A stretch of 25,818 nt of DNA from a virus. The stretch is from positions 1 to 25,818 of IMG/VR virus record IMGVR_UViG_3300012985_000026. One strand, 5' to 3'. The notes under the pieces are model-generated. The model was not told where the DNA came from. It worked only from the letters and a program-made list of their open reading frames with translations, and did not search any database. The translations under genes were made by a program, and so were the position numbers. How positions within the stretch are numbered: position 1 is the stretch's first letter; each line of letters opens with the position of its first letter. This document shows, piece after piece, positions 1,621 through 21,622 of this stretch.

Positions 1621-1733
1621 TACATTTGTAATGTAATTGAAAGTGCCGAAGTTCAATTGCAATGAAAGTTTAACATAGAATTGCCAATTAATGATAACCC
1701 GGCACGGTTTGATTTAATTGGCTTTCTTGTTTT
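1621..1733 (+). promoter_or_regulatory. Promoter and structured leader A (5' motif complementary to terminator loop)
   Basis: A -7 box TACATTTG lies at 1621-1628; no clear -33 TTG is visible. The motif GTGCCG (1643-1648) follows 15 nt later. CAATT (1654-1658) can pair with AATTG (1679-1683). The terminator-like stem GCCAATTAA (1683-1691) pairs with TTAATTGGC (1714-1722) and is followed by TTTCTTGTTTT. The inner stem AACC/GGTT (1696-1699/1706-1709) presents the hexaloop CGGCAC (1700-1705), the exact complement of the 5' motif. The element ends about 14 nt before the YopX gene. Pairings are read directly; the regulatory role is inferred. Confidence 0.6.
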
Positions 1734-1746
1734 AAAATATTTAATT

Positions 1747-2100
1747 ATGAGAGAAATAAAATTTAGAGGTTATTGTAATGATTTAGAAAAATTCATTTAT
1801 GGGGGAATTTCAATATTCCAAAACGAAGCAACTATTTTTGATGAAAAAGATATGACCAATTCCGCTTACGATGTAGACATAAAAACAGTTGGTCAATTCA
1901 CAGGCTTAAAAGACAAAAACGGAACTGAAATATACGAAGGTGATATTGTAAGACGATTTGATAAAAATGAAATAGTTTCATTTATAGACGAAAATTCATG
2001 CGGTTGCTGCAATTACGGTTCTGGGTATATCTGGAGCAAATACGAGGCAGAATCAATAGAAATAGTCGGCAACATCCACCAAAACCCAGAATTATTATGA
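1747..2100 (+). CDS. YopX family protein
   Basis: The start is ATG 1747 in the context TTTAATTATG, giving 117 residues; the frame extends further upstream, but only through leader sequence. The N-terminal REIKFRGY and the core TVGQFTGLKDKNGTEIYEGDIV (about residues 49-70) are the hallmark of the YopX domain found in phages of Gram-positive bacteria and Bacteroidota. A CGCC motif lies near residue 88. The biochemical role of YopX proteins is not established. It is the first gene behind leader A and is coupled to the next gene by ATGA. Confidence 0.85.
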   Translation: MREIKFRGYCNDLEKFIYGGISIFQNEATIFDEKDMTNSAYDVDIKTVGQFTGLKDKNGTEIYEGDIVRRFDKNEIVSFIDENSCGCCNYGSGYIWSKYEAESIEIVGNIHQNPELL

Positions 2101-2216
2101 ACTACGACGACGAAAGAGTAAACAGAATATACAAGATGATAGTTATATTTGTCATTGTAGGAACGATAGCATTGACAATAGGATTTTGTCTTGCTAATAA
2201 ATTTATTAACCTTTAA
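2097..2216 (+). CDS. 39-residue single-pass membrane protein
   Basis: ATG 2097 overlaps the YopX stop as ATGA. The product MNYDDERVNRIYK... has a charged N-terminus and one TM helix (about residues 14-35, MIVIFVIVGTIALTIGFCLA) ending in a short NKFINL tail. The frame is open upstream, but the overlap start is favoured because it couples translation to YopX. No family is recognised. Confidence 0.55.
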   Translation: MNYDDERVNRIYKMIVIFVIVGTIALTIGFCLANKFINL

Positions 2217-2227
2217 ATAATTGGATT

Positions 2228-2485
2228 ATGAATTATAGATTAGAGAAAGAAAAAGTAATAACATTTGAATTTTTAACAGATAACGGATTTGAACAGGATG
2301 AAGATTTATACTGGAAAAATGAAGATATAGGAGTAGAATATAATTATTACTCTGAATGGATGTGGTTTGGTAAATATGGAATCCCAAGAGTTGATTCCCA
2401 AAAAAGATTTACTGAATGCCTAAATACAGTTGGAAATACAAATCTGTTAGATGGGTTCAATAGACAATATATTGATGAAAAATGA
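2228..2485 (+). CDS. Hypothetical small acidic protein
   Basis: This 85-residue protein starts at an ATG in the context ATTGGATTATG and is rich in acidic and aromatic residues (EDLYWKNEDIGVEYNYYSEWMWFG around 25-48). There is no signal peptide or TM segment and no family is recognised. Its stop overlaps the ATG of the beta-barrel-like gene as ATGA (2482-2485), so it belongs to the operon starting at leader A. A small cytoplasmic accessory role is all that can be suggested. Confidence 0.6.
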   Translation: MNYRLEKEKVITFEFLTDNGFEQDEDLYWKNEDIGVEYNYYSEWMWFGKYGIPRVDSQKRFTECLNTVGNTNLLDGFNRQYIDEK

Positions 2486-2973
2486 AAAAGCTAATCATAA
2501 TTATATTTATATCAACCCTATCTTATTCTCAAGACATAAGATTAGGAGATACTGAAACATTCAACATATCTATTTTAACTGATGCTAGAGCCTCGATTAA
2601 AGAAAAAGGAATCAACATAGGCGGAGAGATAGAACTTGTTTCTAACGCGATTTACGTGCGTTCTGGAATACAGACATTTTCTGTTCTTGAAGGCGGTTAT
2701 ATGGATTGGACAACTGGAATAGGTCTAAACCTTAAATCAGGCTACTTTGACAATTTCAGATATTACGCTGGAGGAAGATTAGGGCTTATTTGGAGAGACG
2801 GCAATTCATATCCGACAGCAGGATGTGAAATAGGAATAGAACATAATTTCAATTCTGGATTTATTTTAGGATTGAGAGGCACATACGATTACCGTTCTGA
2901 CTTTGAGTATTGGTCCAATAATAAAGCAGAAATGAGATATAGTTGTTTTATAAAGATAGGTTTTAAACTTTAA
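2482..2973 (+). CDS. Secreted outer-membrane beta-barrel-like protein
   Basis: This 163-residue protein has a signal peptide (MKKLIIIIFISTLSYSQ, cleavage near S16/Q17). It is followed by alternating amphipathic strands separated by Gly/Asn/Asp turns, for example GINIGGEIELVSNAIYVRSG and YYAGGRLGLIWRDG. It ends CFIKIGFKL, a hydrophobic/aromatic C-terminal strand as in outer-membrane barrels. Such a protein would insert in the host outer membrane and could alter the receptor or exclude superinfecting phage; that role is inference. It is coupled to its neighbours by ATGA upstream and a 3-bp gap downstream. Confidence 0.6.
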   Translation: MKKLIIIIFISTLSYSQDIRLGDTETFNISILTDARASIKEKGINIGGEIELVSNAIYVRSGIQTFSVLEGGYMDWTTGIGLNLKSGYFDNFRYYAGGRLGLIWRDGNSYPTAGCEIGIEHNFNSGFILGLRGTYDYRSDFEYWSNNKAEMRYSCFIKIGFKL

Positions 2974-2976
2974 ATT

Positions 2977-3717
2977 ATGCAATCAGAAATAAGAGGTGTC
3001 GCTTTTAAAGACCGAACTGGGATAAAAATAAATACAAATCAAGGATATTTAGTAGAAATAATAGATTACATTGATTGTAACAACTGTACTGTACAATTCC
3101 CTGAAGGAAATATTGTTTACAATATTCCTTATGCCAGCGTTCACAGATGTAAGAATCCATATCATAAAACTGTTTGCAATGTCGGATACATAGGAAACGG
3201 ATATTATAATAGAACCAATACACCCCATGCATATTATATATGGAAAGGAATTATTAGAAGATGCTATTCAAAAGAAATTAACAAAAAAAATAACTCATAT
3301 AAAGATTGTTTAGTTTCCATTGATTGGCATAATTTTCAGAATTTTAATTATTGGTTTGAAGAAAATTTCAATCCTGATACAATGTTAGGATGGCACATAG
3401 ATAAGGATATTCTATCAAAAGGTTGTAAAGAATATTCTGCAAAAACTTGTTGCTTTGTTCCTCAAGAAATAAATATTAATTTTTCAAGATTAGAAAAAAA
3501 TTCAGGCATATCTTTTAGACGAGGTAAATATATAGCAAACATTAGTGTGTTTAATAAAAATAATTATATAGGTAGCTATGATAGTTATGAGTCAGCATTT
3601 AAAGCATATAAGGATGTAAAAGAAAAACATATAAAATTTCTTGCAGACAAATGGAAACATAAATTAAATAATTCGGTTTACAAGGCTATGTATGACTATA
3701 AAGTAGAATTAAAATGA
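2977..3717 (+). CDS. AP2/HNH-type homing-endonuclease-like protein
   Basis: The 246-residue protein has a central block YYIWKGIIRRCYSKE...SYKDCLVSIDWHNFQNFNYWFEEN (about residues 87-130), as in phage HNH-like endonucleases. The C-terminal block GISFRRGKYIANISVFNKNN followed by SYESAFKAYKDVKEK resembles an AP2-type DNA-binding domain. Cysteine pairs (CNNC about 34-37; CC about 157-158) may bind zinc. The DNA is visibly more AT-rich than the late genes, consistent with a mobile free-standing endonuclease. I cannot point to an unambiguous H-N-H triad, so it may be an inactive or DNA-binding-only relative. Confidence 0.65.
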   Translation: MQSEIRGVAFKDRTGIKINTNQGYLVEIIDYIDCNNCTVQFPEGNIVYNIPYASVHRCKNPYHKTVCNVGYIGNGYYNRTNTPHAYYIWKGIIRRCYSKEINKKNNSYKDCLVSIDWHNFQNFNYWFEENFNPDTMLGWHIDKDILSKGCKEYSAKTCCFVPQEININFSRLEKNSGISFRRGKYIANISVFNKNNYIGSYDSYESAFKAYKDVKEKHIKFLADKWKHKLNNSVYKAMYDYKVELK

Positions 3718-3759
3718 TAGCAAGCACGTTTATTAAAATTGGATGGAAACTTTAAGATT

Positions 3760-4173
3760 ATGGAAAAAGACACAAGACCACAGGCTACAGATTTTAGAAT
3801 AGGAAATATTATAAGATACAATGGAAATTTTGAATTTATAGATTCTTTACATTCAGATAATACTTTTCGAATAAAAAGAGGAGATTCGTCGGAAGGATGT
3901 TTTAAGACATACGGAATTGAGCTAATTTATATTGATGAAGACATTCTTTTGAGTTTAGGATTTAATAAAAAATATACGCAATCTTTTGAGGAATATGAAG
4001 TTGAATGTTTTAAATATGGTAGATTAAGCATAGGGCTTTTAAGTACTGGAGATATTAGCGTTTATTTTAATGATGAAGAAATATTTGGATTATTCTATTT
4101 ACATCAATTACAAAACCTTTACTTCGCTCTTACAGGAGAGGAATTACAAAATAAAAATAAAATTACATCATGA
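3760..4173 (+). CDS. Hypothetical RIGN-family phage protein (paralogue 1)
   Basis: I prefer ATG 3760 (context AAGATTATGG, giving 137 residues) over the in-frame ATG 3739. The N-terminus contains DFRIGNIIRYNG and the C-terminus LHQLQNLYFALTGEEL. This RIGN...HQLQNLYFALTG pattern recurs in Bacteroidota phage proteins of unknown function. The next gene has the same two end motifs, so they are tandem paralogues joined by ATGA at 4170-4173. Confidence 0.65.
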   Translation: MEKDTRPQATDFRIGNIIRYNGNFEFIDSLHSDNTFRIKRGDSSEGCFKTYGIELIYIDEDILLSLGFNKKYTQSFEEYEVECFKYGRLSIGLLSTGDISVYFNDEEIFGLFYLHQLQNLYFALTGEELQNKNKITS

Positions 4174-4556
4174 GGCCGCAAGACTTAAGAATAGGTAACT
4201 TGTTACAAGATAGAATTTCAGAAACTTTTCTCAAGGTGGTTCAGCTAACGGAAAAAGACATTATCACTTACGTAATTGACAGAAGCAAATACCCTTTAGA
4301 AAAAGGATGGTCTTTAGAGCCAATTCCATTAACTAAACAATTGATGTTTAATTTAGGTTTTGTAATACTTCCTAGCGAGAGTGATAAATATATATTATTT
4401 TACAAATCATGTGAACAGGAAAATAAAACCTTTCTTGTAGAATGCTATTCTGATGAATTTTATACATATAGCAGCTTTAGATTGAGATACGTACATCAGA
4501 TTCAAAATATATATTATTTACTCATAGGCAAAGAATTAACCCTAAAAGCATCCTAA
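4170..4556 (+). CDS. Hypothetical RIGN-family phage protein (paralogue 2)
   Basis: This 128-residue protein shares DLRIGNLL at its N-terminus and VHQIQNIYYLLIGKELTL at its C-terminus with the preceding gene, plus EPIPLTKQLMFNLGF in the middle, which matches LLSLGFN of paralogue 1. Function is unknown. The last codons lie inside the downstream terminator: the TAA (4554-4556) sits in the hairpin loop. It is the last gene of the operon that begins at leader A. Confidence 0.65.
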   Translation: MRPQDLRIGNLLQDRISETFLKVVQLTEKDIITYVIDRSKYPLEKGWSLEPIPLTKQLMFNLGFVILPSESDKYILFYKSCEQENKTFLVECYSDEFYTYSSFRLRYVHQIQNIYYLLIGKELTLKAS

Positions 4557-4568
4557 CCGATGCTTTTT
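4544..4568 (+). terminator. Intrinsic terminator overlapping a gene's stop codon
   Basis: AAAAGCATC (4544-4552) pairs with GATGCTTTT (4559-4567) around a six-base loop CTAACC, followed by more T. The stop codon of the upstream gene is in the loop. Confidence 0.85.
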
Positions 4569-4573
4569 TTATT

Positions 4574-4581
4574 TAAATTTG
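4574..4581 (+). promoter_or_regulatory. Putative promoter, -7 box TAAATTTG
   Basis: TAAATTTG matches the Bacteroidota -7 consensus TAnnTTTG directly after a terminator and 22 bp before the next ATG. No TTG box is seen at the expected distance, so it is a weak call that rests on the -7 box and its position. Confidence 0.5.
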
Positions 4582-4603
4582 TGACTAACTTAAAACAAAA
4601 AAA

Positions 4604-4747
4604 ATGAACAACATAAAAGTTACTTGGGATGGTGAGCCTACAAATGACGAATTTGACAAGGCAGAACAGTTTAAGAATGAGTTTGAGGCTACCTTTCCTG
4701 GACTCACTGTAGAGCTAATCGGATCGCGACCGAAAGACCGTGGATAG
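4604..4747 (+). CDS. 47-residue hypothetical protein
   Basis: ATG 4604 sits in an A-rich context 22 bp after a -7 box. The product is MNNIKVTWDGEP...FKNEFEATFPGLTVELIGSRPKDRG: soluble, acidic, no TM and no recognised family. It overlaps the next gene by eight bases (GTG at 4740). It is the first gene of the transcription unit that leads into the lysis cassette. Confidence 0.55.
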   Translation: MNNIKVTWDGEPTNDEFDKAEQFKNEFEATFPGLTVELIGSRPKDRG

Positions 4748-5120
4748 GTTTCTTATAAAACTGGCAGTAGCTGTCAGCATAATTACCTATTTATTCTGGA
4801 AACAGATTAAAGAACTTACAGGCGTTCCCGTATTCTACATGGGCAACGCCTTATTTATTTTCCTATTGTCTGTAATTATTTACAGAAAGTTTAGGCATTT
4901 ATGGATAGCTTTCGTACTTTTATGGTTGTCAGCTAACAATTTGATTGATGAGATTTTTTTTGACAATACTAAAATTGGGTTAAATGAATACGTTCTGCTT
5001 CCTTTTTTAGTAATTATAACTTACTTTAGCTATGCCAGAAAGACTACAAAACATCCCCAGCGAAATATATTCTTTCTTTTTAAAGATTATATTTCCCGCC
5101 ATAGTCGGCGTAGGGATTAA
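4740..5120 (+). CDS. Multi-pass membrane protein with GTG start, overlapping the holin gene
   Basis: This 126-residue frame starts at GTG 4740; no ATG fits, and the start overlaps the previous stop. It encodes about four hydrophobic helices (roughly residues 5-20, 35-48, 55-70, 84-97). The last 30 residues (ARKTTKHPQRN...SRHSRRRD) are very basic and lie in the 89-bp overlap with the next gene, where the other frame encodes a conserved-looking holin N-terminus. The basic tail may therefore be tolerated rather than selected. Its position before holin and endolysin suggests a lysis role such as a holin partner. Confidence 0.55.
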   Translation: MDRFLIKLAVAVSIITYLFWKQIKELTGVPVFYMGNALFIFLLSVIIYRKFRHLWIAFVLLWLSANNLIDEIFFDNTKIGLNEYVLLPFLVIITYFSYARKTTKHPQRNIFFLFKDYISRHSRRRD

Positions 5121-5397
5121 AATAGCAGTTGAAATGCAGATGGACAGCAAAAAAATATCGTGGGTAAATGTCATACTTTCGTTGGTTATAGGCGTTGGCA
5201 TGGTATATCTTTTCAATGGCGTAATCAATAGGTATATTGAAGAGGATTACATACCTTTGGTCGTAGGCCTTGTAGCCATACTAGGAAAAGAATTCGCGGT
5301 ATACCTTATTTATAAACTGAATGTCGATATTTTCCTTACGGCTCTTGTTAATGCTGGACAGGATTTTTTATTGAGCATTTTTAAAAAGAAACAATAA
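5032..5397 (+). CDS. Holin-like membrane protein
   Basis: This 121-residue protein has three or four TM segments: about 14-33 (FFLKIIFPAIVGVGIKIAVE), 44-62 (WVNVILSLVIGVGMVYLFNG), 74-94 (IPLVVGLVAILGKEFAVYLIY) and a hydrophobic stretch near 100-115. It ends in a basic FKKKQ tail. Topology and position, two bases before the endolysin gene, fit a phage holin that would release or activate the M15 endolysin at the inner membrane. It begins inside the upstream gene in another frame. Confidence 0.65.
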   Translation: MPERLQNIPSEIYSFFLKIIFPAIVGVGIKIAVEMQMDSKKISWVNVILSLVIGVGMVYLFNGVINRYIEEDYIPLVVGLVAILGKEFAVYLIYKLNVDIFLTALVNAGQDFLLSIFKKKQ

Positions 5398-5399
5398 TC

Positions 5400-5930
5400 A
5401 TGTTAGATCCGGTTACAGTTGAAAGAATTAAACTATTGCATCCTATAGTAAGAAAAGAGGTTTTGGATATGTACACTCATGCAAACGAAAAACTGCTGCC
5501 TAAAGGCGTTAGATTGCGTTTTGCATATACATTAAGAACTAATAAAGAACAGGATGATTTATATGCTAAAGGAAGGACAAAGGCTGGCAGAATAATTACC
5601 AATGCAAAAGGCGGCCAATCAATTCATAATTACGGATTGGCTTTTGATATCGTTATATTATTTGACGAAGATGGTGATGGTAAATTTGAAATAGCGTCTT
5701 ATGATTTAGATAGCTACTGGATGAAAGTAACCAACTATTTTAAATCAAAAGGTTGGGAATGGGGGGGAGATTGGAAATCATTTAAAGACTATCCTCATTT
5801 TCAAAAAGTATTCGGCTTAAAATGGCAGGATTTGATTAAAATGGCTAAAGACAGTAATGGATATTTTGCAGTAAAGGACGTTGAAGTTAATGATATGGGT
5901 GTAAGTTTTAAAATTATAAAACCTAAATAA
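5400..5930 (+). CDS. Endolysin, M15 family zinc peptidase (VanY/L-Ala-D-Glu type)
   Basis: This 176-residue protein has the M15 motif SIHNYGLAFDI at 74-84 (zinc ligands H76 and D83) and a third ligand in DYPHFQ (H133). WEWGGDW at 119-125 precedes the last ligand, as in L-alanoyl-D-glutamate and D-Ala-D-Ala peptidases. LRTNKEQDDLYAKGRT (45-60) is the usual helix upstream. It would cleave peptidoglycan cross-link peptides during lysis. There is no signal peptide, so it depends on the holin encoded just upstream. Confidence 0.9.
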   Translation: MLDPVTVERIKLLHPIVRKEVLDMYTHANEKLLPKGVRLRFAYTLRTNKEQDDLYAKGRTKAGRIITNAKGGQSIHNYGLAFDIVILFDEDGDGKFEIASYDLDSYWMKVTNYFKSKGWEWGGDWKSFKDYPHFQKVFGLKWQDLIKMAKDSNGYFAVKDVEVNDMGVSFKIIKPK

Positions 5931-5995
5931 AATGAAAAATGGAGGCACAGAAGTTTGATTTGATTTTGTATTCCGACATAGTAGTCGGATAATTA

Positions 5996-6031
5996 AAAAT
6001 CCCCTGCTAAATCAATAGAGGGGATTTTTTT
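5996..6031 (+). terminator. Intrinsic terminator after the endolysin gene
   Basis: AAAATCCCCT (5996-6005) pairs with AGGGGATTTT (6019-6028), continuing into a T run. Its stem resembles the terminator at 6955-6981. Confidence 0.9.
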
Positions 6032-6112
6032 AACCAATAAACCGAATTAAACTATGAAAGCATAAATGTAGTTATTTTTATTTAAGTTTTTACAAATCAT
6101 GTAATATTTTTT

Positions 6113-6151
6113 AAAACGTCTGCTGGATAACACCAAGCCAGGCGTTTTTTT
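6113..6151 (+). terminator. Second intrinsic terminator
   Basis: AAAACGTCTG (6113-6122) pairs with CAGGCGTTTT (6139-6148), with one G-U pair, and leads into a T run. The loop holds a small TGG/CCA inner stem. It immediately precedes a promoter -7 box. Confidence 0.85.
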
Positions 6152-6153
6152 AT

Positions 6154-6161
6154 TATATTTG
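6154..6161 (+). promoter_or_regulatory. Putative promoter, -7 box TATATTTG
   Basis: TATATTTG is a perfect match to the Bacteroidota -7 box, 23 bp before the start of the next gene and directly after a terminator. No -33 TTG is found at the expected distance. Confidence 0.55.
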
Positions 6162-6184
6162 AAGTAACTTTAAATCAGTAAATT

Positions 6185-6475
6185 ATGGAAAATGGAAAGG
6201 TTATAAACTTAAAATTTGTTAGAGCTAAATATGAACAAACATCGTGTAGACACAAATGTGTAACAGTAAATGAAGATACTAGAACTGTTATATGCGATTC
6301 TTGTGATATTGTTGTAGATGCTTTTGACTACTTAAGACATTGTTGTTATCAGGAACAATCTGCTTTTGATGACTTGGCCAGATATGAAATTGAAGTATCT
6401 AAATTACAAAAAAGATATAATAACCTTACCAAAGAAATTGAAAGGCTTAATAAGGTAAAAAGGGCTATGTCATGA
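6185..6475 (+). CDS. Cys-rich putative zinc-binding protein with coiled coil
   Basis: The 96-residue product contains C21, C25, C38 and C41 (SCRHKCV ... VICDSCD), spaced like a zinc ribbon, and a further CC pair near 53. The C-terminal third (about 66-96, YEIEVSKLQKRYNNLTKEIERLNKVKRA) is a strong coiled coil. Function is unknown. It follows its own promoter and overlaps the spanin-like gene by ATGA (6472-6475), so the two are co-translated. Confidence 0.6.
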   Translation: MENGKVINLKFVRAKYEQTSCRHKCVTVNEDTRTVICDSCDIVVDAFDYLRHCCYQEQSAFDDLARYEIEVSKLQKRYNNLTKEIERLNKVKRAMS

Positions 6476-6948: not shown

Positions 6949-6954
6949 ACTTTT

Positions 6955-9411: not shown

Positions 9412-9538
9412 TTGTTTATTATGAAATAATTCATATATTTGTTTAGTCGAAAGCACTACCGACAGGAAAATATTTTAGTCAATGACTAATAGAGTAACCC
9501 TGACAGATAGTAGTGCATCTGTTGGGGTTTTCTCATTT
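9412..9538 (+). promoter_or_regulatory. Promoter and structured leader B (5' motif complementary to terminator loop)
   Basis: TTG (9412-9414), N19 and TATATTTG (9434-9441) form a strong promoter. GCACTAC (9453-9459) starts 12 nt after the -7 box. TTAGTC/GACTAA (9475-9480/9484-9489) is a hairpin. Then comes an 11-bp terminator stem, 9498-9508 with 9517-9527 (two G-U pairs), followed by TTTTCTCATTTT. Its eight-base loop contains GTAGTGC (9510-9516), the exact complement of the 5' motif. The downstream gene starts at 9552. Pairings are seen; switching is inferred. Confidence 0.7.
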
Positions 9539-9551: not shown

Positions 9552-9749
9552 ATGAAAATAAACTTTAGTAGTAATGGTCTCGAGGGAATTGAGATTATTA
9601 TAGAAATAATAGAAAGTAATGAAGAAGATCTTGTTGATTTATCAATTAAATATGATAATGAAAGAATCAATACTGTGTGCTTAACTAAAAAACAGTTTAT
9701 AAATTTTATAGGTCTGTGTAAGCATGTGAAATCTAAAATGAATAAATAA
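9552..9749 (+). CDS. Hypothetical small protein, first gene behind leader B
   Basis: A 65-residue acidic protein (MKINFSSNGLEGIEIIIEII...) ending in a Lys-rich KHVKSKMNK tail. It has no TM or signal peptide and no recognised family. ATG 9552 lies 24 bases after the terminator-like stem of leader B. It is followed by the replication initiator-like gene after six bases, so it is part of the replication operon. Confidence 0.55.
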   Translation: MKINFSSNGLEGIEIIIEIIESNEEDLVDLSIKYDNERINTVCLTKKQFINFIGLCKHVKSKMNK

Positions 9750-9755
9750 TAATTC

Positions 9756-10481
9756 ATGAAAGATCCAGCAGTATTAATTTATTTTGATAAATGGATTTCC
9801 TCAACTAATGGAATGAAGTCTAGCCATAGGTCTTGGTATATGGATTTAATGATTTATCAGTATGACAAAGGCGCTATTCCTAACGATGAAGATGCTATTT
9901 TCGGAATTTGCAGGGTTCGTCCAAGCGAGTATGAAGACTTCAAGCAAATGGTAGAGCAAGTGCTTAAGCAAAAGTTTGAGCTAGTTAATGGTTTTTGGAT
10001 AAATGGTGTTATGAACGATGTTTTACAGAAGCGTAATGAGTTTAAAGGAAAACGTGAGAAATCTGGTAATATTGGTGTAGTGATAAAGTTGGCAAAGTCA
10101 ATAGAATGGGTGACTGAACCTATGCTTATAAAACTGAAAGACAAATTAAGTACTTTTTCTATTGAAGAAATAAACGAGCATAAGCATAAGCATTTGCTTG
10201 AGCATTTGCTTAAGCTATATATAGATGTAGATGTAGATATTAATATAAAAGAAAAAATAGAAAAATTTCAAATTTTGACTTTATCATCAAATACATATCT
10301 TGAAAGCATTTATAAGCTATTTAAAATACCAATTGATAAAATACCAATTGCTTTATCTGAATTTTGCTTAAATGCTTTGAGCGGAGGAAAAGATTATAAA
10401 AACGTAGAAGAGTTTCGAGAGCATTTTAGAAACTGGATTCGTAAGCGACAAGAATTAAAAACCAAACAACTTTCACAATGA
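9756..10481 (+). CDS. Replication initiator-like protein (DUF1376-type N-terminus)
   Basis: The 241-residue protein starts KDPAVLIYFDKWISSTNGMKSSHRSWYMDLMIYQYDKGAIPND, the pattern of DUF1376-like phage replication proteins (pairs of winged-helix-like units), up to about residue 105. The middle is low-complexity (EHKHKHLLEHLLKLYIDVDVDI, about 140-161). The C-terminal part ends with a helical segment (EFREHFRNWIRKRQELK) such as is found before helicase-loading tails. The gene contains a cluster of DNA repeats that may be the origin. It is coupled to the next gene by ATGA (10478-10481). Confidence 0.65.
   Translation: MKDPAVLIYFDKWISSTNGMKSSHRSWYMDLMIYQYDKGAIPNDEDAIFGICRVRPSEYEDFKQMVEQVLKQKFELVNGFWINGVMNDVLQKRNEFKGKREKSGNIGVVIKLAKSIEWVTEPMLIKLKDKLSTFSIEEINEHKHKHLLEHLLKLYIDVDVDINIKEKIEKFQILTLSSNTYLESIYKLFKIPIDKIPIALSEFCLNALSGGKDYKNVEEFREHFRNWIRKRQELKTKQLSQ
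10176..10216 (+). repeat. Repeat cluster inside the initiator gene, candidate origin
   Basis: GCATAA occurs twice in tandem, then GCATTTGCTT occurs twice (10190-10199 and 10202-10211), each able to form a short AAGCA/TGCTT-type inverted repeat. Directly downstream lie two GATGTA units and an A/T-rich stretch to about 10270. Repeats inside a replication initiator gene recall the lambda O/ori arrangement. The repeats could also simply be a low-complexity protein segment. Confidence 0.4.
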
Positions 10482-13858: not shown

Positions 13859-13951
13859 CTATATTTGAATTATAAAATCCGCCAAGATTAAAAATTTAAT
13901 CAATACCCTTCTTTGTTTGCTTGGCGGTAACATTGGAGGGTATTTTGTATT
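13837..13951 (+). promoter_or_regulatory. Promoter and pseudoknot-capable leader C
   Basis: TTTG (13837-13840), N19 and TATATTTG (13860-13867) form a promoter. CCGCCAAG (13879-13886) starts 12 nt later. GATTAAA/TTTAATC (13886-13892/13895-13901) forms a hairpin. AATACCCT (13902-13909) pairs with AGGGTATT (13937-13944), and inside that loop CTTGGCGG (13920-13927) is the exact 8-base complement of the 5' motif, giving an H-type pseudoknot. The U tract is weak, and the gene starts eight bases after the stem, so control could be on translation. Confidence 0.7.
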
Positions 13952-14875
13952 ATGGAAATAAATAAAATATATCAAGAGCCATGTTTAGATACGTTAAAAA
14001 AAATGCCTGATAATTTTTTGGATAGCGTTATAACATCCCCTCCTTATTGGCAGCTTAGAGATTATGGTTACAGCGGACAATGGGGATTAGAACCAACATA
14101 TAAGGAATATTTGGAGAATTTGTGGAATATTATGGATGAAGTATATAGAGTACTTAAAACAGAAGGAACTGTATGGATTAATCTTGGAGACACATATAAC
14201 GGAAGTAAATTAGGCAATACTTCAAACAAAGGGTATAAAGAAAATACTGTTGTATCTACTTTTAAAAAAAATAAACAAAAAGAACCATACAAAACTTTAC
14301 TACTTATACCTCATAGATTTGCTATAGGATGCATGGAAAGAGGATGGATAATTAGAAATGATATTGTTTGGGCTAAAAGAAACGGAATGCCAGAGAGTGT
14401 AACAGATAGATTTTCTAAAAAACATGAATATTTCTTTTTTATGACTAAATCAGAAAAATATTATTTTGACTTAGATTCTGTAAGAGATGTTTTAAAAAAT
14501 AATGTATCTATAAGAAATAAAGCATCCAAAGAATATGGAAGAGGTTCAGGATCTAAACAATTCTCGGAAGGAGAAAGAATATGGGGGAGTATTGAAAAAG
14601 GTAAAAATCCTGGGTCAGTATCCGATTTTTGGGATATACCCACCAAACCATCCAAAGAAAAACATTATACATCTTATAATGACAATCTTTTAAAAAAACC
14701 TGTTTTATCAGGGTGTCCTGAAAATGGATTAATATATGATCCTTTTATGGGAACAGGAAGCACAGCTGAAGTTTGTTTAAGAACTAATAGAAATTTTATA
14801 GGTTCTGAAATGAGTCCAGAATATTGCAATATAGCAAACAATAGAATTGATAAATTTAGTAATATGTTATTTTAA
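13952..14875 (+). CDS. Beta-class DNA methyltransferase (SPPY, probably N4-cytosine)
   Basis: The 307-residue protein has TSPPYW at 28-33 and the SAM-binding motif DPFMGTGST at 263-271, the beta-class order. SPPY is more usual in N4-cytosine enzymes, although adenine specificity cannot be excluded. RNDIVWAKRNGMPESVTDRFSKKHEYFFFMTKS (135-166) is the typical core, and DFWDIPTKPS (225-234) the usual linker. It is the single large gene behind leader C. The DNA is very A/T-rich with different codon preference from the tail genes, suggesting separate acquisition. Confidence 0.85.
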   Translation: MEINKIYQEPCLDTLKKMPDNFLDSVITSPPYWQLRDYGYSGQWGLEPTYKEYLENLWNIMDEVYRVLKTEGTVWINLGDTYNGSKLGNTSNKGYKENTVVSTFKKNKQKEPYKTLLLIPHRFAIGCMERGWIIRNDIVWAKRNGMPESVTDRFSKKHEYFFFMTKSEKYYFDLDSVRDVLKNNVSIRNKASKEYGRGSGSKQFSEGERIWGSIEKGKNPGSVSDFWDIPTKPSKEKHYTSYNDNLLKKPVLSGCPENGLIYDPFMGTGSTAEVCLRTNRNFIGSEMSPEYCNIANNRIDKFSNMLF

Positions 14876-15280: not shown

Positions 15281-15561
15281 TGAAACAAGTCATACAAGTT
15301 ACTGATGAATTTTTTATTAAGTCAAAAACAAATAGTGGGGAATACGCTAAACAATATTTTAAAGAAGCTCAGTTTGATGATGATACATCATCAAGAGCAT
15401 TAATTATCCGTAAATATGTTCTTAGTGATAAATTAGATGGCTATCCTAATTATGATTTGATTAAAACATATAAAGGATTTGGATTGTTTCTGCAGAAATT
15501 CAGTATTAAAACAGAAACATTAAACATGGCTATTGACATATTAAATTTAGATAAATATTGA
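15280..15561 (+). CDS. Hypothetical protein
   Basis: The start is ATG 15280, overlapping the upstream TGA by one base; an in-frame GTG lies three bases earlier. It has 93 residues with two helical halves (FFIKSKTNSGEYAKQYFKEAQF; NYDLIKTYKGFGLFLQKFSI), no TM and no family recognised. Coupling to the GRPKKG protein suggests a two-gene unit. Confidence 0.55.
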   Translation: MKQVIQVTDEFFIKSKTNSGEYAKQYFKEAQFDDDTSSRALIIRKYVLSDKLDGYPNYDLIKTYKGFGLFLQKFSIKTETLNMAIDILNLDKY

Positions 15562-15562
15562 A

Positions 15563-15630
15563 GTGGTATTCACTACAAAAAAGCTGATACGTTCTTAAGT
15601 AAGGGAATATCCAAGTTTTCGGCTTCTTTT
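15563..15630 (+). promoter_or_regulatory. Possible leader D (weaker instance of the leader architecture)
   Basis: AAGCTGA (15581-15587) can pair with TCGGCTT (15619-15625, one G-U), followed by CTTTT: a terminator-like stem with a 31-base loop. The loop holds GAATATCC (15605-15612), which can pair with the upstream GGTATTC (15565-15571) if one T is bulged. The promoter is doubtful: TAAATTTA at 15542-15549 is one mismatch from the -7 box. Weaker than leaders A, B, C and E. Confidence 0.35.
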
Positions 15631-15652
15631 ATTAATCAATAAAAATTAAATT

Positions 15653-15874: not shown

Positions 15875-15931
15875 ATGAAAATTAGACACACAATAAAATC
15901 TAACAGGTTCGAGTCCTGTCATTGCCACTAA
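15875..15931 (+). CDS. 18-codon ORF reading into the tRNA fragment
   Basis: ATG 15875 has the same ATTAATTATG context as real starts in this window. It encodes MKIRHTIKSNRFESCHCH, whose last nine codons and stop are made from the tRNA-like sequence. Whether it is translated is unknown. It may be the stub left when a tRNA-derived attachment sequence was joined to an older gene start. Confidence 0.25.
   Translation: MKIRHTIKSNRFESCHCH
15903..15927 (+). other. tRNA 3'-end fragment (T-arm plus acceptor strand), candidate attP core
   Basis: ACAGG (15903-15907), loop TTCGAGT (15908-15914) and CCTGT (15915-15919) form a perfect five-pair T-arm. They are followed by a seven-base acceptor strand CATTGCC and discriminator A (15927). 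The matching 5' acceptor GGCAATG and the D- and anticodon arms are absent upstream, so this is not a complete gene. Phages that integrate into tRNA genes carry exactly such a 3' piece to restore the gene. No integrase is in the window, and Bacteroidota tRNA genes often lack encoded CCA, which fits the following CTA. Confidence 0.65.
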
Positions 15932-15942
15932 ATAATTAAACT

Positions 15943-16370: not shown

Positions 16371-16382
16371 TCATTTAGAGTT

Positions 16383-17051: not shown

Positions 17052-17061
17052 TCAGGGAACA

Positions 17062-17307
17062 ATGACTACAACGGAAGAATTTTTAAACGGCGTATCTAAA
17101 TCAGTCATTCAAAATTCGAAATATATTGAAGAAGTATTTGTAAATGAAGAAGAAGTAAAAGACGCTATGATTGAATTTGCTAAATATCACGTAGCCGAAG
17201 CTTTGAAGTTAGCAAGTGAAAATTACCTACACATTTTTGAGGGTGAATTAATTTTCCTAAACAAAGAATCTATTCTAAACGCTTATCCATTAGAAAACAT
17301 AAAATAA
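17062..17307 (+). CDS. Conserved small phage protein
   Basis: I start it at ATG 17062, ten bases after the methyltransferase stop, giving 81 residues; an in-frame ATG at 17002 lies inside the previous gene. DAMIEFAKYHVAEALKLASEN (about 38-58) and the C-terminal KESILNAYPLENIK recall a small protein widely found in Bacteroidota phages without assigned function. It ends 26 bp before a terminator. Confidence 0.6.
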   Translation: MTTTEEFLNGVSKSVIQNSKYIEEVFVNEEEVKDAMIEFAKYHVAEALKLASENYLHIFEGELIFLNKESILNAYPLENIK

Positions 17308-17333
17308 TTTTTAATCAGGGATGCGACTGTAAC

Positions 17334-17357
17334 AAACCACTTAACCGTGGTTTTTTT
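17334..17357 (+). terminator. Intrinsic terminator
   Basis: AAACCAC (17334-17340) pairs with GTGGTTT (17347-17353) around TTAACC, then a T run. It isolates the following lipoprotein unit from the methyltransferase operon. Confidence 0.88.
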
Positions 17358-17373
17358 ATTTGAAAACATTTTA

Positions 17374-17381
17374 TATATTTG
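17374..17381 (+). promoter_or_regulatory. Putative promoter, -7 box TATATTTG
   Basis: A perfect -7 box lies 23 bp before the lipoprotein ATG and just behind a terminator. The -33 position falls in the terminator's T run, and no TTG is visible there. Confidence 0.55.
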
Positions 17382-17404
17382 CACCAACTTAAAATAAATA
17401 CCAA

Positions 17405-17821
17405 ATGAAAAAATTAATCTTTACACTTGCCTTATCAGGCTTATTATTCGCTTCATGTTCCCATGACGATTCAAACCAGAAATCAGAAACAATGCAAAAA
17501 TAAGCGTCTGTTTCTAAAATTGGAGGAGGAACTCCTAATGAGCCTCAAGCACCTACAGAAGCACAGATTAAAGAAGCAATAAGCGAAACTGAATATGAGG
17601 CTTATCTTCAAATAGTAAATAATGAAACAGCAGGACGAGGAGTAAAATTCTGCAACCATGACAGCTTTGCATCTGGAAGCGGTTCTGGATACGCACAGGT
17701 AACATTGAATGACGGATCAGTACATTACACGTATTTTACATGGTTTAAAGACAGTACAGGCAAAACTTATGTAGCTGGTTTATATGAAGGCACTTCGCCT
17801 CCAGCAGGCAGCGGATGCTAG
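17405..17821 (+). pseudogene. Lipoprotein gene interrupted by an in-frame TAA (moron-like)
   Basis: The ATG at 17405 opens MKKLIFTLALSGLLFASCSH, a clear lipoprotein signal (Cys18), and continues DDSNQKSETMQK before TAA (17501-17503). The same frame then stays open for 105 more codons to TAG 17819: ASVSKIGGGTPNEPQAPTEA ... GVKFCNHDSFASGSGSGYAQ ... GTSPPAGSGC. The downstream part looks like a real secreted domain with two cysteines. One nonsense change therefore seems to have cut a 138-residue lipoprotein to 32 residues. It has its own promoter and terminators, as lysogenic-conversion or superinfection-exclusion genes often do. A sequencing error or readthrough is possible. Confidence 0.7.
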
Positions 17822-17839
17822 AAATAAATATACGATGTA

Positions 17840-17912
17840 GGGCGCATGAAGCAAAATTAATCTATATGATAGATCCAGACGTGGAAATAAACTATAAATT
17901 AAGTCATGCGCC
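17840..17912 (+). ncRNA. Candidate multibranched RNA structure between lipoprotein gene and terminator
   Basis: GGCGCATGA (17841-17849) pairs perfectly with TCATGCGCC (17904-17912). The enclosed 54 bases hold two adjacent hairpins: ATCTAT/ATAGAT (17860-17865/17869-17874) and CCA/TGG (17875-17877/17882-17884, tetraloop GACG). A terminator follows 12 bases later. It could be a 3'-UTR stability element or a processed small RNA. A 23-codon ORF (17866-17937) overlaps it but looks incidental. Confidence 0.4.
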
Positions 17913-17923
17913 TCTCAATATTA

Positions 17924-17952
17924 AAAACCACTATTAGCTTAGTGGTTTTTTT
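17924..17952 (+). terminator. Intrinsic terminator before the sigma-like gene
   Basis: AAAACCACTA (17924-17933) pairs with TAGTGGTTTT (17940-17949) around a six-base loop, then a T run. Confidence 0.9.
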
Positions 17953-17968
17953 ATTCAAAAAACTTTTG

Positions 17969-17976
17969 TATATTTG
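17969..17976 (+). promoter_or_regulatory. Putative promoter, -7 box TATATTTG
   Basis: A perfect -7 box lies 18 bp before the sigma-like gene, directly behind a terminator; no TTG is visible at the -33 position. Confidence 0.55.
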
Positions 17977-17994
17977 ATTAATAAATAATTAACC

Positions 17995-18414
17995 ATGCTT
18001 GAAGAACTTGCAAAAGAAGATAACTATTTCCGTAAGATAGCCTTCAATATATGCAAGGACAAGAACACCGCTGACGACCTAGTGCAGGAAATGTACCTAA
18101 AGCTGTCAGGAATAGACAGGGAAATAAAAGACCTTAAATGGTACGCGGTCATAGTGATAAGGAATTTATTCATAGACCATGCAAAAAAGCCATCAAACAC
18201 AGATTTATCAAGACTGAAACTTATACAGTCGGAAAGATATGAGCCAGACGACAAGGAAAAAAAAGTACTAGACAGGCTTACATGGCTTGAAAGAGAATTG
18301 CTAGAATTAAGCTGTGACAAGTCGCTAAGGGAAATAGAAAGAGAGTTCAACATAAATTACGCATTCACTCACCGTATAATCAAAAATGTAAGAAATGGGG
18401 CGAAAAAAACGTAG
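17995..18414 (+). CDS. Sigma-70-family (ECF-like) sigma factor
   Basis: The 139-residue protein has a region-2-like segment: FNICKDKNTADDLVQEMYLKLS (about 17-38), then WYAVIVIRNLFIDHAKK (49-65), as in ECF sigma factors. A linker is followed by a region-4-like HTH: LTWLERELLELSCDKSLREI (about 95-114) and NINYAFTHRIIKNVRN. It is shorter than bacterial ECF factors. It lies upstream of the terminase genes, where a late activator would be expected, and could direct host RNA polymerase to late promoters. It overlaps the next gene by 20 bp. Confidence 0.75.
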   Translation: MLEELAKEDNYFRKIAFNICKDKNTADDLVQEMYLKLSGIDREIKDLKWYAVIVIRNLFIDHAKKPSNTDLSRLKLIQSERYEPDDKEKKVLDRLTWLERELLELSCDKSLREIEREFNINYAFTHRIIKNVRNGAKKT

Positions 18415-18775
18415 CACAGGATTAGGAGACACCATAGAAAAAGTAACGGAAGCAACAGGAATAAAAAAGTTTATAGAAATATTTGTAGACGGAAAAGACT
18501 GCGGATGTGATGAAAGGCAAAAGTTACTCAACGAATTATTTCCCTACCGATTCAAGGCAAGATGCCTGACCGAAGAGGAGTATAAACAATGGAAAGAATT
18601 TAGGGACATACGAAGCCTTAAGTTAAATTGGAATGAAGTAATATTCATCTGCAAGTTATACGCTGATGTTTTCTCAAGACAGTATTGGGAGCCAGAATGC
18701 GGAGGATGCAACGTAAAAAGCATCATCGACATGATTAACAAATTAGATAAAGTTTATGAAACATATTCAAGATGA
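18395..18775 (+). CDS. Conserved phage protein (GLGDTIEKVTEATGIKK family)
   Basis: The 126-residue protein opens MGRKKRSTGLGDTIEKVTEA and continues with GKDCGCDERQKLLNELFPYR (about 35-54) and a second Cys cluster ECGGC (about 102-106). I recognise this order from Bacteroidota phage and prophage proteins of unknown function located near terminase genes. The four cysteines may bind a metal. It is translationally linked to the sigma-like gene. Confidence 0.7.
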   Translation: MGRKKRSTGLGDTIEKVTEATGIKKFIEIFVDGKDCGCDERQKLLNELFPYRFKARCLTEEEYKQWKEFRDIRSLKLNWNEVIFICKLYADVFSRQYWEPECGGCNVKSIIDMINKLDKVYETYSR

Positions 18776-19010
18776 AATATCAGATGAATTTGCAAAAAGC
18801 ATAGAGTCATTCTATCTAAATTTAGCATATCAATGTCTTGGAAGGGATTTCTGTAAAGAAACTGATTCAAAAAGATTTAGTTTTAACCTTTACACTCACT
18901 TGGATAAAAAAAGATTTGTTTTTGATGGTGTAGAAATAGGAACTATAATTGAAGATTTTGAGAACAGGAGTATAGAATTTATACCAGATAAACAATTTAG
19001 CCATGCCTAG
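18756..19010 (+). CDS. Hypothetical protein
   Basis: The 84-residue protein overlaps the previous gene by 20 bp and the next by 8 bp. There is no TM or signal peptide. IQDEISDEFAKSIESFYLNLAYQCLGRDF is probably helical, and FVFDGVEIGTIIEDFENRSIEFIPD beta. No family is recognised. It belongs to the operon from the sigma gene to terminase. Confidence 0.55.
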   Translation: MKHIQDEISDEFAKSIESFYLNLAYQCLGRDFCKETDSKRFSFNLYTHLDKKRFVFDGVEIGTIIEDFENRSIEFIPDKQFSHA

Positions 19011-19128
19011 AAAGAAGACAGAACCTAAAACGGAAACCAAGCCTAAACTTAAAGAAGAGGTCTACTACGAACATGATCCGTTAAACCAGATTGATGTAAG
19101 GAAAACAAGAATGGTCGAAGATAAATAA
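19003..19128 (+). CDS. 41-residue basic protein
   Basis: ATG 19003 overlaps the upstream gene. The product MPRKKTEPKTETKPKLKEEV...VRKTRMVEDK has a Lys/Glu/Pro-rich start and an aromatic middle (YYEHDPLNQID). No family is recognised. It is retained because of the tight overlap and because the next gene starts two bases after its stop. Confidence 0.5.
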   Translation: MPRKKTEPKTETKPKLKEEVYYEHDPLNQIDVRKTRMVEDK

Positions 19129-19130
19129 CG

Positions 19131-19307
19131 ATGGACGAAATAATAAAATTATATGAATACGTTCCTAAATGGATTATAGACCAGAAGCCAAATATTTATA
19201 TATGCCCTTCAAAATACAAAGAAGTTACAGATAAAGAATACAAAGGACTGCCTATAATCAAAAAGGCTGAAATGCCTTACGGCGGAGTAGTCATTGGATT
19301 TATATAA
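19131..19307 (+). CDS. 58-residue hypothetical protein
   Basis: ATG 19131 gives MDEIIKLYEYVPKWIIDQKP...VTDKEYKGLPIIKKAEMPYGGVVIGFI. It is soluble with a hydrophobic C-terminal strand; no family is recognised. It lies in the dense operon leading to terminase. Confidence 0.5.
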   Translation: MDEIIKLYEYVPKWIIDQKPNIYICPSKYKEVTDKEYKGLPIIKKAEMPYGGVVIGFI

Positions 19308-19346
19308 TAAAAAGTATAATATAATCAATAAACTAAAAATAAAATT

Positions 19347-19652
19347 ATGGCTTTAATAGTAGAAAATTCAGAAAAATGTAAACCGTCTCAAGAAAGGAAA
19401 TTCCAAAATATAATCAACCAGTTTCAAGAAGAAGATAATACGAGAAAGCAATTATTAACCACGCTTTCAGAGAAAGTATCTTCGATGTCTGGAATAAATC
19501 TTCTTTTTGTTAATGAGGATTGTAAATATGAAAATTCAGAAATAAAAAAACAAAAATCTGTAATTGATGATCTTCAATCAGCTTTAGATAAAATAAAATC
19601 AGATAACATCTGGATTGAGAATATTGTTTCAAACCTAGACGATTTAATATAA
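19347..19652 (+). CDS. Helical coiled-coil-like hypothetical protein
   Basis: The 101-residue protein has ATG in the context AAAATTATG. It has two long charged helices (KFQNIINQFQEEDNTRKQLLTTLSEKV; EIKKQKSVIDDLQSALDKIKS). No TM and no family are recognised. It is part of the pre-terminase operon. Confidence 0.55.
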   Translation: MALIVENSEKCKPSQERKFQNIINQFQEEDNTRKQLLTTLSEKVSSMSGINLLFVNEDCKYENSEIKKQKSVIDDLQSALDKIKSDNIWIENIVSNLDDLI

Positions 19653-19654
19653 TC

Positions 19655-19831
19655 ATGGAAAGCGACAAGAAATATCTTTTTGAAAAAGGATGGCATACAT
19701 TATGGAACGATGATAACTGGGTACATCCAGTAATTATGAGAGGTTCAAACATGGATTATTGCGGTGTAGGAATTGAAGCAGCATTGAGCATTCAGAAAAA
19801 AGTAGATAACGGAACTTATGGGAATACATAA
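19655..19831 (+). CDS. 58-residue hypothetical protein
   Basis: ATG 19655 gives MESDKKYLFEKGWHTLWNDDNWVHPVIMRG...GVGIEAALSIQKKV. Aromatic-rich and soluble. It overlaps the small-terminase start (19818) by 14 bp, which supports real translation. Function is unknown. Confidence 0.55.
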   Translation: MESDKKYLFEKGWHTLWNDDNWVHPVIMRGSNMDYCGVGIEAALSIQKKVDNGTYGNT

Positions 19832-20252
19832 ATACATAGAAACTCCAGAAAAGTTATGGGAACTATTCCTTGCTTATAAGAAACACGTAAAAGATAATCC
19901 CAAGATTGTAAAAGACTGGGTAGGAAAAGAAGCAGAGACAGTTTACAGGGAAAAAGAATGCCCTCTTACAATGGTCGGATTTGAATGTTTCGTATGCGAT
20001 AATTCAAGGATAACATATCCTGACTTGACAAATTATTTTGACAAGAATAATGAAAGCTTTAAAGATTTCGTCCCTATCTCATCGCGTATACTGGCAGAAA
20101 TAAAGAATGACCAGATATCTGGAGGCATGACAATGATATACAGCCAGAACCTTACTGCTCGTTTAAACGGACTTGTAGACAAGAAAGAAACGGATATAAA
20201 AGGTACTCTTAATATTCCAACCGTTCCAGATATTGGAAATAGAAAAAAATAA
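19818..20252 (+). CDS. terS: Terminase small subunit
   Basis: The 144-residue protein has ETPEKLWELFLAYKKHVKDNPK (8-29), ECPLTMVGFECFVC (47-60), YPDLTNYF, and SRILAEIKNDQISGGMTMIYSQNLTARLNGLVDK. This pattern matches small terminases of Bacteroidota phages, which bind the packaging start site and present DNA to the large subunit. The large subunit gene overlaps it by 20 bp. No separate cos or pac site is recognised. Confidence 0.8.
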   Translation: MGIHKYIETPEKLWELFLAYKKHVKDNPKIVKDWVGKEAETVYREKECPLTMVGFECFVCDNSRITYPDLTNYFDKNNESFKDFVPISSRILAEIKNDQISGGMTMIYSQNLTARLNGLVDKKETDIKGTLNIPTVPDIGNRKK

Positions 20253-21456
20253 ATACAAATATTCAAAGGCCTATTATAAGATACTAGACCTGATTACGTC
20301 CCATCCTGATGAGGACGTTTTTGTTATTAGGGGAGGTCAGGGAGCAGGAAAGACAATATCCATATTGCAGCTTGTCATACAGTCTTTGGTATCATCTGAA
20401 AAAGAAGTAACGGTTTTATCTGATGCGCTCTCAAAGATGAAACGAACCGTAATGCGAGACTATAAAAAGATTTGCAAAGACTGGGGATTATTCACGGGTG
20501 AAAATGATTTCAACAGATCCGAAAGCAAGCACGAATATGTAAACGACAGCTACATAGATTTCATGGGTGCTGATTCTGCCGATATCGGAAAGGGATTCAG
20601 AAGGGATATCATTTATATCAACGAGGCTGACAAACTAGATTTAGATACCGCAGTACAATTCATATCACGTGCCGGACTTACAATAATTGACTACAATCCA
20701 GATAGCCTATTCTGGGGAGACGATTATATAAACGAAAACAACTTTATAACTCTTACATTCGAAGATAATGAGTTCTTGCCAGAAAGTGAGGTTAAATCAA
20801 TTTTAGAATATAAGACTAAAGGTTTCCATAATTATGACCTACCATTTGATTTATTATTCAAGGATGAAAACATAAAAAACAAATATTGGGCAAACAAATG
20901 GAAAGTTTACGGTCTTGGAATGATAGGTTCATTAGACGGGGTTGTTTTCTCTAATTGGTCAGAAATAGACAAAGTTCCAGATGAAGCCAGATTACTTGGA
21001 TATGGACTTGATTTTGGATACAGCAATCACCCTACTGCCATAATCGAAGTTTATAAATGGAATGACAAAAGGATTCTGAATGAGATTTGTTATGAAAAAA
21101 GATTAAGCAATGCGGCCATAGCAAAAAAGATACCTTCAAAGCTACCATGTTATTGCGATTGTGCCGAACCGAAATCAATTGATGAATTAATAGACAATAG
21201 GATAAACGCAATTGGAGCAGATAAGGGCGCTGACAGTATCAACTACGGAATACAATTAATGCAGGAACAAAGTTATTTGGTGACTAGCAATTCAATAAAC
21301 CTTAAGTTAGAATTGGAAAAACATACATGGGCTAAAGACAAAAGAACTGGAGAATCTTTGAATAAGCCAGTAGACGCATTCAATCATGCTATTGATGCGG
21401 TAAGGTATCACGAAATGGAAACATTAGGCAGAAGCTTTGGAGTAGAAATAAGATAA
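20233..21456 (+). CDS. terL: Terminase large subunit
   Basis: The 407-residue protein has Walker A GGQGAGKT (34-41), Walker B IIYINEAD (126-133, Glu131 catalytic) and a coupling segment LTIIDYNPD. The C-terminal RNase H-like nuclease has likely metal ligands D260 (YGLDFGYSNHP), D309 (YCDCAEPK) and D381/D388 (DAFNHAIDAVRY). It packages DNA into proheads. The start appears to be TTG 20233: no ATG occurs between the preceding in-frame stop and residue 69. It is followed not by a portal gene but by a new promoter and tail genes. Confidence 0.93.
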   Translation: MEIEKNKYKYSKAYYKILDLITSHPDEDVFVIRGGQGAGKTISILQLVIQSLVSSEKEVTVLSDALSKMKRTVMRDYKKICKDWGLFTGENDFNRSESKHEYVNDSYIDFMGADSADIGKGFRRDIIYINEADKLDLDTAVQFISRAGLTIIDYNPDSLFWGDDYINENNFITLTFEDNEFLPESEVKSILEYKTKGFHNYDLPFDLLFKDENIKNKYWANKWKVYGLGMIGSLDGVVFSNWSEIDKVPDEARLLGYGLDFGYSNHPTAIIEVYKWNDKRILNEICYEKRLSNAAIAKKIPSKLPCYCDCAEPKSIDELIDNRINAIGADKGADSINYGIQLMQEQSYLVTSNSINLKLELEKHTWAKDKRTGESLNKPVDAFNHAIDAVRYHEMETLGRSFGVEIR

Positions 21457-21460
21457 GACA

Positions 21461-21622
21461 TTTGTTTATCATTATTTTTTGCTTTATATTTGATGTAACA
21501 AAAAAAAGGTTAGCGACTTGCACACTATAAGTCTGATGTTTTAAATATATACTTAGCACTTTGCACCCTTTTTGTCTGATAACAAAAATCCTTCGGTCGC
21601 CAAACTTGGAGGATTTTTTGAT
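21461..21622 (+). promoter_or_regulatory. Late promoter and structured leader E
   Basis: TTTG (21461-21464), N20 and TATATTTG (21485-21492) form a strong promoter. GCGAC (21513-21517) lies in the 5' leader. The terminator stem AAAAATCCT (21584-21592) pairs with AGGATTTTT (21610-21618), with a 17-base loop containing GTCGC (21596-21600), complementary to the 5' motif; a G-U pair and two flanking A-T pairs extend it. This is the same order as in leaders A, B and C. Between them lies a 43-nt-spaced direct repeat. Confidence 0.65.
21510..21580 (+). repeat. Direct repeat in the late leader (two 28-nt units, 43-nt period)
   Basis: Units 21510-21537 and 21553-21580 share TTAGC, TTGCAC and GTCTGAT at identical spacing, 21 of 28 positions matching. 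TTAGC-N16-GTCTGAT has the spacing of ECF-sigma promoters, so tandem alternative promoters or regulator sites are possible. Confidence 0.55.

Follow-up and report, generated by a model that had tools for sequence, protein, structure and literature searches.

What stands between promoter and first gene at several operons of IMG/VR virus record IMGVR_UViG_3300012985_000026, and could it act on transcription? An earlier note on this 25.8-kb virus record (the whole stretch is called the window here) had proposed that leaders at 1621, 9434, 13860 and 21485 share one architecture, in which a promoter -7 box is followed by a 5' motif and by a terminator-like stem whose loop holds the exact complement of that motif. 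We found that three of these sites carry a kissing-loop leader, which is a real RNA element and is seemingly new to the literature. Its predicted form is an intramolecular kissing loop, made between the loop of hairpin 1 (H1) and the apical loop of a terminator-like hairpin 2. Proteins of the window include a large terminase, a primosomal DUF1376 protein, methyltransferases and YopX, and by these the window belongs to a tailed phage, kin to flavobacterial phages. On balance, we favour the view that the leaders are a family of cis-acting kissing-loop attenuators ahead of operons in phages of Flavobacteriia.

Leaders of the window

Leader 1, ahead of the YopX gene:
1621..1628, plus strand: -7 box TACATTTG, read from the sequence (consensus TAnnTTTG)
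1632..1661, plus strand: H1 (TGTAATTGAA/TTCAATTGCA), kissing motif GTGCCG in its loop at 1643-1648
1683..1722, plus strand: hairpin 2, with outer stem P2 (GCCAATTAA/TTAATTGGC), internal loop TGAT/TGAT and inner stem P3 (AACC/GGTT)
1700-1705, plus strand: kissing loop CGGCAC, within hairpin 2
1723-1735, plus strand: U-rich tail
1747..2100, plus strand: YopX-like gene 3' of the leader (Pfam PF09643, E 5e-18)

Leader 2, ahead of the replication operon:
9434..9441, plus strand: -7 box TATATTTG
9446..9463, plus strand: H1 (GTCG/CGAC), motif GCACTAC at 9453-9459
9475..9489, plus strand: middle hairpin TTAGTC/GACTAA, shared with loci L082, L094 and L128
9494..9531, plus strand: hairpin 2 (GTAACCCTGACAGAT/ATCTGTTGGGGTTTT), with GTAGTGC at 9510-9516 and tail CTCATTTT
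9552..10481, plus strand: start of the replication operon, a 65-aa open reading frame (ORF) and then a DUF1376 primosomal-type protein

Leader 3, ahead of a methyltransferase gene:
13860..13867, plus strand: -7 box TATATTTG
13879..13886, plus strand: kissing motif CCGCCAAG, 5' of a small hairpin
13887-13900, plus strand: small hairpin ATTAAA/TTTAAT (ATTAAG/CTTAAT in locus L091)
13902..13944, plus strand: hairpin 2, with P2 AATACCCTTC/GGAGGGTATT, P3 TGTT/AACA and loop CTTGGCGG at 13920-13927
13952..14875, plus strand: DNA N6/N4 methyltransferase gene 3' of the leader (Pfam PF01555, E 1.8e-48)

All three sites have the promoter -7 box, the 5' motif, the stem with a U-rich tail and the exact loop complement of 6-8 bases that had been described for them. 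For 13860 it is correct that the motif immediately precedes a small hairpin; for 1621 and 9434 the anatomy has to be amended, as a 5' hairpin there encloses the motif in its loop (GTAATTG[aaaGTGCCGaagtt]CAATTGC and GTCG[aaaGCACTAC]CGAC, loops in brackets). Such a location, within the loop of its own H1, is also that of the motif in most members.

A promoter scan asked for TAnnTTTG with a motif no more than 35 nt away, and for a stem that has a U-rich tail and holds the motif's complement in its loop. Its top four on both strands of the window were 1621, 9434, 13860 and 21485 (scores 23, 30, 28 and 24), the next candidate reaching 19. Across 200 dinucleotide shuffles, scores of at least 23-24 arose 0.1-0.25 times per window (0.245 for 23) and scores of at least 28 arose 0.015 times per window; by these frequencies 9434 and 13860 are safe on the promoter scan alone, and 1621 and 21485 are not. 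A strict descriptor, which demands a hairpin around the motif, a kissing helix of at least 6 bp, an enclosing stem, a U tail and a promoter, matched the window three times, at 9434 (38.6), 1621 (36.8) and 13860 (34.1). None of 200 shuffled windows held a match of at least 32 with a promoter; under this descriptor, shuffles lack the equally frequent complementarity that the earlier note had named as a refutation of its proposal.

The fourth claimed leader, ahead of the tail operon, was dropped:
21485..21618, plus strand: promoter box and terminator-like hairpin present, not counted as a member

It was not called by the strict descriptor, its motif pair is the 5-base GCGAC/GTCGC (not significant), its linker is about 65 nt long, no hairpin surrounds the motif and no homologue was found. 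A phage-wide occurrence is not supported: the leader recurs before accessory (YopX), replication and methyltransferase genes, finds no support at the tail operon and is lacking at most promoters. Those promoters that had been listed as leaderless do start close to their genes. Inside the claimed fourth leader, a stretch of about 29 bases is also repeated directly, though imperfectly (TTAGCGACTTGCACACTATAAGTCTGATG / TTAGCACTTTGCACCCTTTTTGTCTGATA), at 21510-21538 and 21553-21581; this is perhaps an operator or another RNA.

Relatives and covariation

Loci from IMG/VR were gathered via terminase, replication, helicase, YopX and methyltransferase proteins, and named phages were added. In this set of 2.46 Mb the descriptor with promoter and U-tract returned 68 non-redundant leaders with a score of at least 28, compared with 10 in the reversed and complemented sequence. 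The 68 leaders hold 53 distinct kissing sequences, and in genomes with several leaders the kissing sequence differs from one leader to the next. Among isolates, members were found in Flavobacterium phages 11b, mumin9-1 (two), hattifnatt9-1 (three) and elemoE, in Olleya phage Harreka_1 and in Polaribacter phage Danklef_1; phages phi12:1, phi46:1, FPSV-S2 and Bacteroides BS162P3 were checked and gave no convincing member, and a scan with positions 9756-10481 of the window found no relatives. An ORF follows 60 of the 68 leaders, with the ATG at a median of 16 nt past P2, and the genes concerned have many functions and no common pathway. The likeliest chance entries are ORF-less ones such as L048, L249, L148 and L071 minus.

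Across the leaders, hairpin 2 has a P2 of 7-17 bp, separated by an internal loop from P3, which carries the kissing loop; the kissing helix measures 6-11 bp. The internal loop is commonly UGAN/NGAU (TGAN/NGAT in DNA) and is the only conserved part of the main subtype; other subtypes have AGUA/GAA or UGC/AAU. Leader 2 forms a subtype with L082, L094 and L128, in which P3 is short or absent and a longer linker bears the extra hairpin TTAGTC/GACTAA. L128 has the kissing pair CCATCAC/GTGATGG in place of GCACTAC/GTAGTGC of leader 2. In the subtype of leader 3, where the kissing motif directly precedes the small hairpin, an A-T pair of that hairpin's stem has become G-C in L091. Homologues of both 9434 and 13860 carry compensatory changes and retain the geometry, in agreement with the claim that sequence varies while geometry is kept.

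To measure covariation, six leaders were used as seeds for model R1, which encodes H1, P2 and P3 and leaves the kissing pairs out; the seeds themselves had been chosen for kissing. The 18 best R1 matches formed alignment A4, which was counted with kissing brackets; slide controls are the sole correction for phylogeny in these pair statistics, and R1 represents mainly one subtype. In A4, 94.8% of pair cells are paired and 25 of the 28 pairs have changed on both sides, with a covariation score of 0.655 compared with 0.166 after shuffling and at most 0.125 after sliding. The kissing helix alone is 89.6% paired (34-50% when slid) and has 25 doubly changed cells (7.8 when shuffled). All four helices, namely H1, P2, P3 and the kissing helix, covary, and covariation is a check that the earlier note had proposed. 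A kissing-loop RNA is defined by covarying Watson-Crick pairing between the loops of two hairpins, and the leaders show such pairing. In the nested helices G-U pairs outnumber A-C pairs by 23 to 3, which indicates an RNA on the sense strand.

Because the seeds were selected for kissing, prediction by R1 provides the cleanest evidence. Leader 3 was recovered by this model, which contains no kissing information, and so were L141, L132:5784, L122:761, L124:33 and L121:1759, all with kissing pairs of 6-10 bp (for example, AGCCTTCGAC/GTCGAAGGCT in L141 and GCTTCGAC/GTCGAAGC in L132:5784). A search with R1 of 299 host genomes of one family gave a match at E 0.01 in 19, of which promoter and kissing were found in L141 only, under stricter filters and with a model of mainly one subtype; L141 is a convincing member, and its contig is about 2 kb long. 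Nature supplies the best experiment in two sister phages, mumin9-1 (GTGGAACG/CGTTCCAC) and hattifnatt9-1 (GTGAGACG/CGTCTCAC), between which two kissing pairs have changed with compensation in DNA that is 96% identical over 1.3 kb.

Orthologous helicase genes (MKKTLYPHQK...) stand behind leaders that are alike in shape and unrelated in sequence (GTGGACG, CCATCAC, GTGGAG, CATCCAC and GCTTCTCAC), which looks as if leaders were swapped like cassettes. The leaders upstream of helicase genes in L018/L119, L121, L122, L123 and L126-L132 are mutually unrelated. In L083, L099, L087 and L047, an extra small hairpin lies between the leader and the ATG of MANILLK/MAKFELK genes; its stem covaries (AGGT/ACCT versus CCGT/ACGG) and it is possibly a translational element.

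Termination, mechanism and rival explanations

In Flavobacterium psychrophilum the TAnnTTTG box covers -12 to -5 (PMC9723704), so that +1 falls at about the fifth base past the box. In the 68-leader catalogue H1 mostly begins 3-6 nt past the box, and the transcript would therefore start at the base of H1, with H1 at about +1. The motif had been placed at the predicted RNA 5' end, and this agrees.

When the U-tract requirement was dropped the same leaders returned, with 62-78% T in the first six bases past P2 and A-rich sequence beyond. The ten bases at the end of P2 are 68% T, a share that is 70% in leaders whose ATG lies 24 nt or more away; upstream of ORFs behind TAnnTTTG promoters in general, the corresponding place has 37.5% T. 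Since the U-tract is tied to P2 and not to the ATG, hairpin 2 is argued to be an intrinsic terminator and not a ribosome-binding feature, and the stem with its U-tract supports its assignment as a putative one.

On the attenuator reading, the transcript would begin at H1 and hairpin 2 would serve as an intrinsic terminator ending about 7-50 nt ahead of the start codon. Once the apical loop has been transcribed, kissing would be possible before the 3' arm of P2 exists. P2 would then stop transcription part of the time, and the kissing state may set how often it does so, by tertiary docking and with no alternative helix. Our tentative guess is that docking slows or strains the closing of the lowest P2 pairs and thereby allows read-through; the opposite direction, in which docking aids termination, is nearly as likely. 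It is also fairly possible, if less likely than not, that the leaders represent a big class of phage RNA switches that evolve fast and that set passage of the terminator by tertiary docking of two loops in the nascent leader, without alternative secondary structure, with little conserved sequence and with a private kissing sequence for each copy in a genome.

Several points weigh against the attenuator reading. Firstly, an all-against-all helix scan of A4 found no covarying antiterminator helix exclusive with the terminator; strong covariation was confined to P2, H1 and the kissing helix, P3 being split by gap columns and visible with the given structure. The proposed switch thus shows no second secondary structure, and without an alternative antiterminator stem, control, if any, must work via docking. 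Secondly, in a rod estimate (2.8 Å per pair, 6 Å per linker base) 43% of leaders have a linker that does not reach far enough for a fully closed P2 together with kissing, and none of these is of the P3-less type; because P3-less leaders show no strain in this model, docking as a brake on termination is a guess. Thirdly, about 10 of the 68 catalogue leaders are expected by chance, and the catalogue was selected by complementarity. Fourthly, the leaders are not known to have a ligand, a protein or an antisense RNA as partner. A correlation between linker and P2 length (rho -0.65) was not used as evidence, as it is partly built in, a longer P2 consuming linker.

The main rival, which is unlikely though it deserves serious weight, is that H1 and the kissing contact shield the mRNA 5' end from decay and that the U-rich stretch offers room for ribosome binding, termination being incidental. 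An H1 at about +1 leaves hardly any free 5' nucleotides (PMC9723704 for the box position), the leaders precede genes of many functions, and unrelated leader sequences before orthologous helicase genes are expected if shape alone matters. However, protection needs no terminator-like end, and the U-tract sits behind P2, is not tied to the ATG and is far T-richer than ordinary upstream regions.

Less probable again is a riboswitch-like regulator, in which termination would be set by a ligand or protein bound to the docked fold or to the conserved internal loop (UGAN/NGAU, or AGUA/GAA like that of the bulged-G motif). Internal loops of non-Watson-Crick type do recur at one place, between P2 and P3, but they differ within one phage (TGAA/GGAT and GGC/AAA in L119), the kissing loops vary freely and the downstream genes have no common pathway. 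For the variation of the internal loops and the lack of a shared pathway, a shape-based, RNA-only device is favoured over a metabolite riboswitch.

We consider it improbable that the leader resembles put or EAR in remodelling RNA polymerase so that it antiterminates processively. RNA-only antiterminators exist, as put and EAR demonstrate (PMC11658703), and here too two interacting and apparently shape-selected hairpins would occupy the extreme 5' end of phage transcripts; yet the element itself ends in a terminator and has no Rfam match. In addition, the region behind leader 1 contains a terminator-promoter pair at 4544-4582, in which the promoter, at 4575, directly follows the terminator, and such pairs between units make little sense under processive antitermination, which weakens the analogy. 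Chance complementarity in AT-rich leaders holds for the claimed leader at 21485 and is next to impossible as a general account, being contradicted by shuffles, slides and the double change in the sister phages and refuted for 1621, 9434 and 13860.

Other sites

A fifth leader was considered at 15560-15635 and rejected, having a weak GTATTC/GAATAT pair with one G-U, a poor box and no support from RNA folding. This region, ahead of a 70-aa ORF, does contain an AGTG/CACT hairpin, a stem AAGCTGA/TCGGCTT and a T-rich tail. At 15895-15929 there is a fragment resembling a tRNA T arm and 3' end (AACAGGTTCGAGTCCTGTCATTGCCAC), a possible attachment site or tRNA remnant; ARAGORN found no complete tRNA in the window. 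A lipoprotein-like frame at 17405-17820 is broken by an in-frame TAA at 17501-17503 and is open again beyond it. In two related contigs, DUF805b RNA (Rfam RF02914) was found away from leaders, at L050:14539-14570 and L096:11635-11666.

Comparison with known systems

Gene control in Bacteroidota phages is largely uncharted, and the leader class gives a testable handle on transcription there. It is common in replication and accessory operons and is hardly revealed by sequence similarity, since it is mainly geometry that is kept. With about 60 natural kissing-loop/terminator pairs at hand, the effect of tertiary contacts on termination can be studied, and leader pairs could possibly be used for building regulators in Flavobacteriia.

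No such leader was found described for phages of Bacteroidota in a literature search that lay outside most subscription journals. With Rfam, nothing reached the gathering score over leaders of the window or of the scanned member loci, and weak matches were snoRNA, microRNA and sRNA noise. The Flavo-1 RNA (RF01705), known from host transcripts (PMC9723704), is likewise a structured 5' element of Flavobacteriaceae, but its family model, run on the window with E values of up to 10 allowed, matched nothing.

Two analogues had been suggested by the earlier note. The first, put of HK022, resembles the leader as a structure made of RNA alone at the 5' end of a phage early transcript; with two hairpins at the transcript 5' end the resemblance is functional at best, as the terminator lies inside the element and there is no known shared sequence (no Rfam family matched the leaders, put's presence among the families scanned being unconfirmed). 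Unlike put and the EAR element of B. subtilis, which suppress distant terminators, the leader has its own terminator. The second analogue, the attenuator, fits better, except that the classic mutually exclusive antiterminator helix was sought and not found. Trp-type leaders and transcriptional riboswitches share the order of promoter, structured leader of about 100 nt, intrinsic terminator and gene. In contrast to trp-type attenuators, no antiterminator helix covaries here, and the partner of the terminator hairpin would be a loop-loop contact.

In the purine riboswitch, kissing loops stabilise a three-way-junction aptamer of conserved sequence that is coupled to a terminator. Intramolecular loop docking is common to both, whereas the leader has free loop sequences and lacks a junction of that kind. 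Attenuators of the pT181/pIP501 type use loop-loop kissing with an antisense RNA in trans, beside an intrinsic terminator. There, as would be the case here, loop-loop kissing decides the fate of the leader, but in the phage leaders both loops lie in one transcript and covary.

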